From Agromyces bauzanensis (lineage in GTDB: Bacteria > Actinomycetota > Actinomycetes > Actinomycetales > Microbacteriaceae), in assembly GCF_014645655.1 (NCBI RefSeq), contig NZ_BMMD01000001.1:308720-372719 (forward strand): DNA of 64,000 bases, read 5' to 3'. Of the stretch, positions 22,956 through 23,058 are shown piece by piece. The first letter of the stretch is position 1; every line of letters begins with the position of its first letter. The notes under the pieces are model-generated. The model saw only the letters and a list, made by a program, of their open reading frames with translations. It was not told where the DNA came from and did no database searches. A program made the translations under genes and the position numbers.

Positions 22956-23029
22956 CTCGCTCTACGGATGGATTCAGCCGACGACGAACTCCGCAGCGAG
23001 GGAGGCCAGTGAACTAGGACTCGCTGCGG
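22956..23029 (-). promoter_or_regulatory. Putative leuA attenuator (alternative RNA pairings)
   Basis: In the RNA, CCGCAGCGAG (23029-23020, inside the leader ORF) pairs over 10 bp with CTCGCTGCGG (23000-22991), with the leader stop in the loop. A second copy of AGCGAG lies at 22961-22956, abutting the leuA Shine-Dalgarno, and can pair with the same CTCGCT arm. The two pairings are mutually exclusive, as expected of a ribosome-controlled switch. Which state favours expression is inference. Confidence 0.65.
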
Positions 23030-23058
23030 CAGCTAAGGAGAAGCAGGCCGTGAAGCAC
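23014..23058 (-). CDS. leuA leader peptide (Leu-rich)
   Basis: GTG at 23058 opens a 14-codon frame reading VLHGLLLLSCRSES, then TAG. Five of 14 residues are leucine, four of them consecutive, using codons CTG CTT CTC CTT; CTT is rare in this genome. It ends within the hairpin region 56 nt before the leuA leader's ribosome-binding site. I see no Shine-Dalgarno upstream, so it may be translated from a leaderless transcript starting at the GTG. Leucine attenuators upstream of leuA are known in other bacteria including actinobacteria. Confidence 0.75.
   Translation of the reverse strand: MLHGLLLLSCRSES

Follow-up and report, generated by a model that had tools for sequence, protein, structure and literature searches.

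How is leuA regulated in Agromyces bauzanensis, and does the short RNA in front of the gene read the supply of leucine? The DNA examined here, referred to as the window, is a stretch of 64,000 nucleotides from a genome of 3.72 Mb in 93 contigs. On its minus strand, to which all window features below belong, lies leuA (21169..22944), which encodes a 2-isopropylmalate synthase of 591 residues (NCBIfam PRK03739.1, 8.2e-268); the nearest named leuA loci are from Agromyces, with 90 and 87% identity. An initial annotation had described four successive Leu codons in a leader ORF, a 10-bp stem whose 5' arm lies in the 3' codons of that leader, and, next to the Shine-Dalgarno (SD) sequence of leuA, a second AGCGAG; all three are present. 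The leader ORF, VLHGLLLLSCRSES, occupies 23014..23058 with a GTG start and a TAG stop (codons GTG CTT CAC GGC CTG CTT CTC CTT AGC TGC CGC AGC GAG TCC TAG, 23058-23014). Its four Leu codons, CTG CTT CTC CTT (23035..23046), are the proposed sensor and anti-SD. The sequence TACCCT (23065..23070), 6 nt 5' of the leader start codon, reads as a -10 hexamer.

The 3' part of the leader ORF contains the 5' arm of stem S1, CCGCAGCGAG (23020..23029), which forms 10/10 Watson-Crick pairs with the 3' arm CTCGCTGCGG (22991..23000). Within the S1 loop, GGCC (23004..23007) is the 5' arm of a pseudoknot helix, S2, whose 3' arm is GGCT (22976..22979); this pairing includes one G-U. The leuA SD zone comprises GAGAAG (22953..22958), the 3' arm of a base stem whose 5' arm is CTTCTC (23038..23043) in the Leu codons, a perfect complement of 6 bp. 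The second AGCGAG (22956..22961) adjoins the SD, 11 nt 5' of the leuA ATG (22944-22942), and complements CTCGCT (23000-22995) of the S1 3' arm. The sequence AGCGAGAAGAG stands directly 5' of the ATG, and 69 nt separate the leader stop from the leuA start. The fold energy of the single leader sequence is unremarkable (z -1.46; 19/200 shuffles equally good). Curated Rfam covariance models give 0 matches at E<=1 in 22900-23150, and across the whole window at gathering scores they identify two tRNAs and nothing else.

The window carries an example of the actinobacterial LEU element, which was published for leuA by Seliverstov et al. in 2005 (PMC1262725). In that element, a leader peptide with consecutive Leu codons is combined with a pseudoknot, with an alternative hairpin and with a base stem in which the Leu codons pair with the leuA SD. 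The window shares the Leu-run leader, the conserved hairpin S1 and the Leu-codon:SD base stem, and it has a candidate for the second pseudoknot helix; both are devoid of an obvious terminator. The two-AGCGAG arrangement, which the initial annotation had offered as its own reading, was already in print as the LEU element. The genomes named in the 2005 methods include Leifsonia xyli and Tropheryma whipplei, and the main text deals with leuA and one Bifidobacterium transposase only; leuC, second leuA and Val/Ile leuB-type elements do not figure there. The authors did not decide on a mechanism but inclined to a protein ligand, proposing orthologues of ML1624, a DEAD-box helicase-like protein, because Leu-codon mutants in Streptomyces coelicolor did not behave as in classical attenuation (PMC1262725). 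As told in that paper, the mutants of Craster et al. 1999 are inconsistent with classical attenuation; its background section reports some effect of the mutations, and its conclusion no influence.

Other leaders of this kind have been recorded by RNA-seq, which lists leu leaders 5' of leuA in S. lividans, C. glutamicum and C. diphtheriae. In S. lividans, leuL1 is described as a Leu-rich leader, MRFGLLLLSCRGEGL, that is leaderless and has no typical terminator (PMC8079986). The Corynebacterium leaders are given as MNRANLLLLRRGGSQA and MTSRANLLLLRRGGSQRS (PMC4046766, PMC5784534, PMC8709942), and in C. diphtheriae no transcript start could be assigned to the leader. All are Leu-rich peptides before leuA, as in the window. 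Judging by the title of Canestrari et al. 2020, the mycobacterial polycysteine leaders offer a further parallel, as a short ORF that is leaderless and repeats the codon of its own amino acid, there cysteine. Among the open-licence papers listed, titles and abstract openings yielded no earlier report of leuC or leuB leaders, although one may exist.

The first step in answering the question is to ask whether the leader is conserved. A Leu-rich leader ORF was called in 81/81 leuA leaders, made up of the window and 80 other Microbacteriaceae leuA loci. A TANNNT box was found before every one of them by a script that favours ORFs with such a box 3-11 nt upstream; it lies 6 nt 5' of the start codon in 75 and 7 nt in five. 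For the one leader left, L042, the score went to an overlapping ATG 3 nt from the box, and the GTG lies at 6 nt. With this placement in 81/81 leaders, the expected transcript start is the leader start codon or a position adjoining it, in the window 23058 or its neighbour. In leaders from outside Microbacteriaceae the distance from the -10 box to the chosen start is 6-10 nt; the script, looking 4-9 nt from the start, found no box in 10 leaders that stand in front of leu genes. A short 5' stretch before the leader ORF is possible in those bacteria.

Stem S1 is retained throughout the family, with 10/10 pairs (G-U allowed) in 78/81 leaders and 9/10 in the other three. Over 58 distinct leaders, 99.5% of cells are paired; five of the ten pairs are invariant, one changes on one side, three change on both sides, and one departs only through unpaired cells. 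When S1 and S2 were scored jointly, 0/500 shuffles reached the observed 18 cells or six pairs changed on both sides, in a test whose structure was taken from the window and which favours that structure over slid controls; 106/500 shuffles reached the number of further pair types. The initial annotation would have been contradicted by a stem that does not covary, and S1 does show compensatory changes. Among the Agromyces leaders, of which the script read 51/52 (L305 is missing), the stem takes the form AGC:GCT in 44/51, GAC:GTC in five and TGC:GCA in two.

For S2, 83.2% of cells are paired within Microbacteriaceae. Swapping partners among these leaders gave results as good as the natural combinations in 1041/5000 trials by run length and 1242/5000 by energy, a family in which S2 varies too little for this comparison. 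Outside Microbacteriaceae, the longest Watson-Crick run averages 6.10 for the own partner and 5.17 for swapped partners in 29 leuA leaders (0/5000), and 5.93 versus 4.97 in 15 leuB-type leaders (15/5000). The comparison outside the family thus supports S2 as a probable helix.

We then consider what occupies the leuA SD. In the 81 Microbacteriaceae leaders, which are related to one another, the Leu run pairs with its own SD zone at -12.71 kcal/mol, compared with -11.60 for swapped zones (0/5000). In 34 leaders picked to spread over genera, including five Microbacterium and two Cryobacterium, the values are -11.76 and -10.97 kcal/mol (102/5000). The 29 leuA leaders outside Microbacteriaceae give -12.74 versus -11.25 kcal/mol (4/5000); four genomes in this set also contribute their second leuA, some pairs are almost identical, L224 (no stem located) and L234 (leader not called) are absent, and of the script-called start codons at least two (L217, L256) look wrong. 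These own-versus-swapped effects are modest. The Leu:SD run falls to only 3 bp in 4/51 Agromyces leaders (CTCCTCCTT).

A competing pairing at the same site was put forward in the initial annotation. With leucine present, the ribosome would cover the S1 5' arm and CTCGCT would pair with the AGCGAG beside the SD; in starvation S1 would form and the SD would be free. We consider this improbable, although part of the evidence speaks for it. Six Watson-Crick pairs between the S1 3' arm and AGCGAG are present in 42/44 Agromyces leaders with the AGC:GCT stem. Own pairings are better than swapped ones in the family, at -10.68 versus -10.29 kcal/mol for the 81 leaders (0/5000), and 58/5000 for the 34 spread leaders (224/5000 without Agromyces), a set in which Leu:SD does no better. 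Versions of 7-8 bp, with CGACGAG facing a CTCGTCG arm, occur in 7/81 leaders (L010, L018, L021, L026, L054, L062, L079), and L025 has GGCGA facing CTCGCC; together these make a cross-genus fit. Against this, AGCGAG is kept beside the SD in 7/7 Agromyces leaders whose stem is not AGC:GCT, although these lineages are related and AGC may itself be the derived stem. In the seven the arm:AGCGAG pairing drops from 6 to 4-5 Watson-Crick bp, and the Leu:SD run is 5-6. For the 29 leuA leaders outside Microbacteriaceae the S1 arm fits its own SD zone no better than swapped zones (3622/5000 as low), and GACGGG by the SD is absent from 6/6 Microbacteriaceae leaders with a CCCGTC arm (L020, L032, L044, L047, L055, L059). 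As a general part of the switch the two-AGCGAG pairing is weakly supported at best, and we do not regard it as one; it may form in the window RNA and in some Microbacterium.

The effect of a ribosome on the Leu:SD base stem was modeled by thermodynamic folding with a 30-nt footprint held open and the pseudoknot ignored. In the window, the modeled probability that the SD is unpaired rises from 0.33 in the ribosome-free RNA to 0.68, 0.52, 0.46 and 0.61 when Leu codons 1 to 4, respectively, occupy the A site; it is about 0.35 from the codon after the Leu run to the stop. Opening is not special to A-site Leu codons, since codons 3 and 4 of the leader, where the footprint covers the Leu run, give 0.67 and 0.70. 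Mean opening over the 34 Microbacteriaceae leaders is 0.25 for free RNA, 0.52 at the first Leu codon and 0.26 at the stop, with the first Leu codon above free RNA in 30/34. The 29 others give 0.22, 0.40 and 0.24, respectively (21/29). With swapped SD zones the gain is still 0.200 in Microbacteriaceae (0.267 with own zones) and 0.125 outside (0.176 with own zones), indicating that most of the modeled opening would arise wherever pyrimidine-rich Leu codons stand opposite a purine-rich SD. The predicted opening agrees in direction with stall-dependent access to the SD.

Taken as a mechanism, the LEU element is most readily understood as a translational attenuator built on a 5'-terminal leader ORF and turned ON by leucine starvation; we put the probability of this reading at roughly 0.65. 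The transcript would start on or beside the leader GTG. With ample Leu-tRNA, the ribosome would reach the stop codon inside the S1 loop and leave; the Leu-codon run would then pair with the leuA SD, S1 and its loop pseudoknot would keep the two close, and leuA would be OFF. When Leu-tRNA is scarce, the ribosome would stall on the Leu codons and cover the partner of the SD, leaving the SD free and leuA ON. The Leu codons would thus be both sensor and anti-SD. Comparison among genomes supports as likely components the leader ORF, the placement of the -10 box, S1, S2 (outside the family), the Leu:SD complementarity and codons that match the pathway. The stalling, the direction of control and its placement at translation instead of transcription are inferred.

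Enterobacterial leu and ilv operons are controlled by transcription attenuators whose leader peptides carry codons for the product amino acids. The window differs from these in that no terminator/antiterminator pair was found and the Leu codons themselves would pair with the SD. The leader might still act on transcription rather than on SD access, its translation controlling Rho-dependent or other termination. Rho-dependent termination is compatible with the sequence, and the C. glutamicum leader, named leuL, is called transcriptional attenuation in a review (PMC8709942). However, 0 terminator-like sites were found in 22900-23200, and the Leu:SD complementarity exceeds that of the swapped controls, so that we view control of transcription as rather unlikely. 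The proposal of the initial annotation that leucyl-tRNA supply acts through the leader peptide at the level of translation is favored by the comparisons, and by inference from them.

How widely the element is used bears on what it senses. A covariance model, R1, was built from 58 leuA leaders including that of the window, whose own score thus proves nothing. R1 matches 60/60 genomes of the genus (E<=0.01), 290/299 of the family (E<=1e-4) and 357/394 of the class, in 122/137 genera (E<=0.001). In a phylum-wide draw, 43/396 genomes have a match, 36 in the class and seven outside it, six of these seven in one family. The leader and stem are not a chance arrangement, as the ORF is called in every family leader, the stem is kept and the model finds the element in every genome of the genus.

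Exactly two R1 matches are present in 54/60 Agromyces genomes. The second LEU element of the source genome (G000:C8:25024-25111, plus strand; locus L117) has the leader VRAPRLLLLCRGGASS and precedes leuC, the product of which is confirmed by NCBIfam. The same gene follows the second element in 28/28 relatives whose second match was fetched, namely 13/13 fetched Agromyces loci, three more genomes and 12/12 other Microbacteriaceae; these 12 had two or three R1 matches, and family genomes with one match exist. In 2/2 longer loci leuC is followed by an ORF that, on a sequence motif, we take to be LeuD-like. Third matches lie in front of a second leuA, which shares 51-57% identity with the first, in four Agromyces genomes and in 7/7 fetched genomes of other Microbacteriaceae with three matches. 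Three other extra matches in Agromyces, the weak L153, L154 and L155, have no leu gene downstream and were rejected as chance. Inspection of the second-leuA elements L149, L151, L152, L199, L205, L208 and L254 by eye reveals a shared TCTGAGGAGT-like sequence just 5' of the -10 box, which is perhaps an operator. By eye, a similar (T)CTGAGGAGT precedes the second-leuA element outside Microbacteriaceae (L220, L247, L248, L256).

Outside Microbacteriaceae, 28 genomes have two R1 matches and 22 of these were fetched. The second element stands before leuB in 15, before a second leuA in five, before nothing recognisable in one (L241, a weak match with no leu gene downstream, taken as chance) and at a contig end in one (L253). 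The leuB-type elements, all in Actinomycetes, are L215, L216, L219, L223, L225, L227, L228, L230, L233, L237, L239, L243, L245, L251 and L258. Each of the 15 leaders has two or more Val/Ile codons, as in MRSVYVLIDCRGGA, MRQVLVLITCRGGA and MSWTVRILRCRDGAR. A second model, R2, built from these 15, contributed further leaders; its finds are biased to its codons, and not all of its matches were fetched. The 15 themselves are free of that bias, as R1 was trained on Leu-only leuA leaders.

Sensor codons were counted among, at most, the seven residues preceding the stem-coded tail. Two or more Val/Ile codons occur in 42/43 leuB leaders versus 0/163 leuA/leuC leaders, and three or more Leu codons in 0/43 versus 160/163; a single Val/Ile codon is present in 23/163 leuA/leuC leaders. 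These counts leave out the Agromyces leuC leaders, may include some species twice, and come from related sequences that are not independent. Dropped from the tally were L199, L202, L205, L211 and L234 (no leader called; Leu-rich sequences before leuA), L241 and L253 for the reasons given above, and L318, L321, L324 and L338 (Val/Ile leaders ahead of the small ORF described below; the fetched DNA ends before leuB).

The genes behind these leaders fit the codons. An ORF with the motif EE[ML]GGMN, typical of branched-chain aminotransferases, follows leuB in 10/10 longer loci, in L281 after one other ORF, and two such ORFs are confirmed as IlvE by NCBIfam. The Val/Ile/Leu codon set fits a leuB-ilvE operon because IlvE serves leucine, isoleucine and valine. 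This codon exchange at leuB is the strongest evidence for the ribosome as the likely sensor.

Two further explanations can be weighed here. One, following the 2005 suggestion of ML1624 orthologues, holds that the element is a binding site for a regulatory protein and the leader peptide is secondary. Its compact pseudoknot is conserved beyond Microbacteriaceae, matches are present in most genomes of the class, and the Leu-codon mutants had no classical effect, as told in PMC1262725. Yet the same RNA core exchanges its sensor codons from Leu to Val/Ile/Leu before leuB-ilvE, which a protein would not need. The sensor codons follow the downstream pathway, and ribosome sensing is therefore favored; the protein site strikes us as quite improbable. 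In the other explanation, the leader ORF merely feeds ribosomes to leuA by coupling or reinitiation and the Leu codons are incidental. Leaders can raise downstream translation in general, but the 69 nt between leader stop and leuA start and the tracking of the pathway by the sensor codons make this very hard to credit.

Most leuB-type loci contain a small ORF of about 28-50 codons between the element and leuB, although the scripts found none in some. Its C-terminal forms include RRDNGGETGH and LDLRDNGGQRPDDN; the small protein is conserved (e.g., L239, L245, L228) and ends in RRDNGGETGH or RDNGGQRPDDN. Four of the peptides match no Pfam or NCBIfam family, with one sub-threshold Pfam match at E 0.3. 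One member has 429 homologues at E<=0.01, and among the best 120 the named ones are hypothetical proteins, chiefly from Nocardioides. By eye, leuB often has its own -10 box 6-8 nt 5' of the ATG, and for this reason the small ORF is a possible direct target of the branched-chain leader.

We return to the translational attenuator and what it may mean for these bacteria. The LEU element has been unexplained since 2005, when codon mutants seemed to contradict attenuation. The analysis widens its reach from a single gene to a number of steps in the synthesis of branched-chain amino acids. In the change from Leu to Val/Ile/Leu codons before leuB-ilvE, nature has in effect run a codon-swap experiment, and its outcome points to ribosomal sensing. 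On balance, we think it probable that the element is a codon-programmable attenuator scaffold for a whole regulon, with stalled ribosomes rather than a protein or metabolite as its ligand and codons matched to the enzymes downstream. The regulon would cover leuA, the second leuA and leuC-leuD with Leu codons, and the small ORF, leuB and ilvE with Val/Ile/Leu codons. If true, this would settle the ligand question left open in 2005, in a bacterial class that is used for the production of amino acids and antibiotics.
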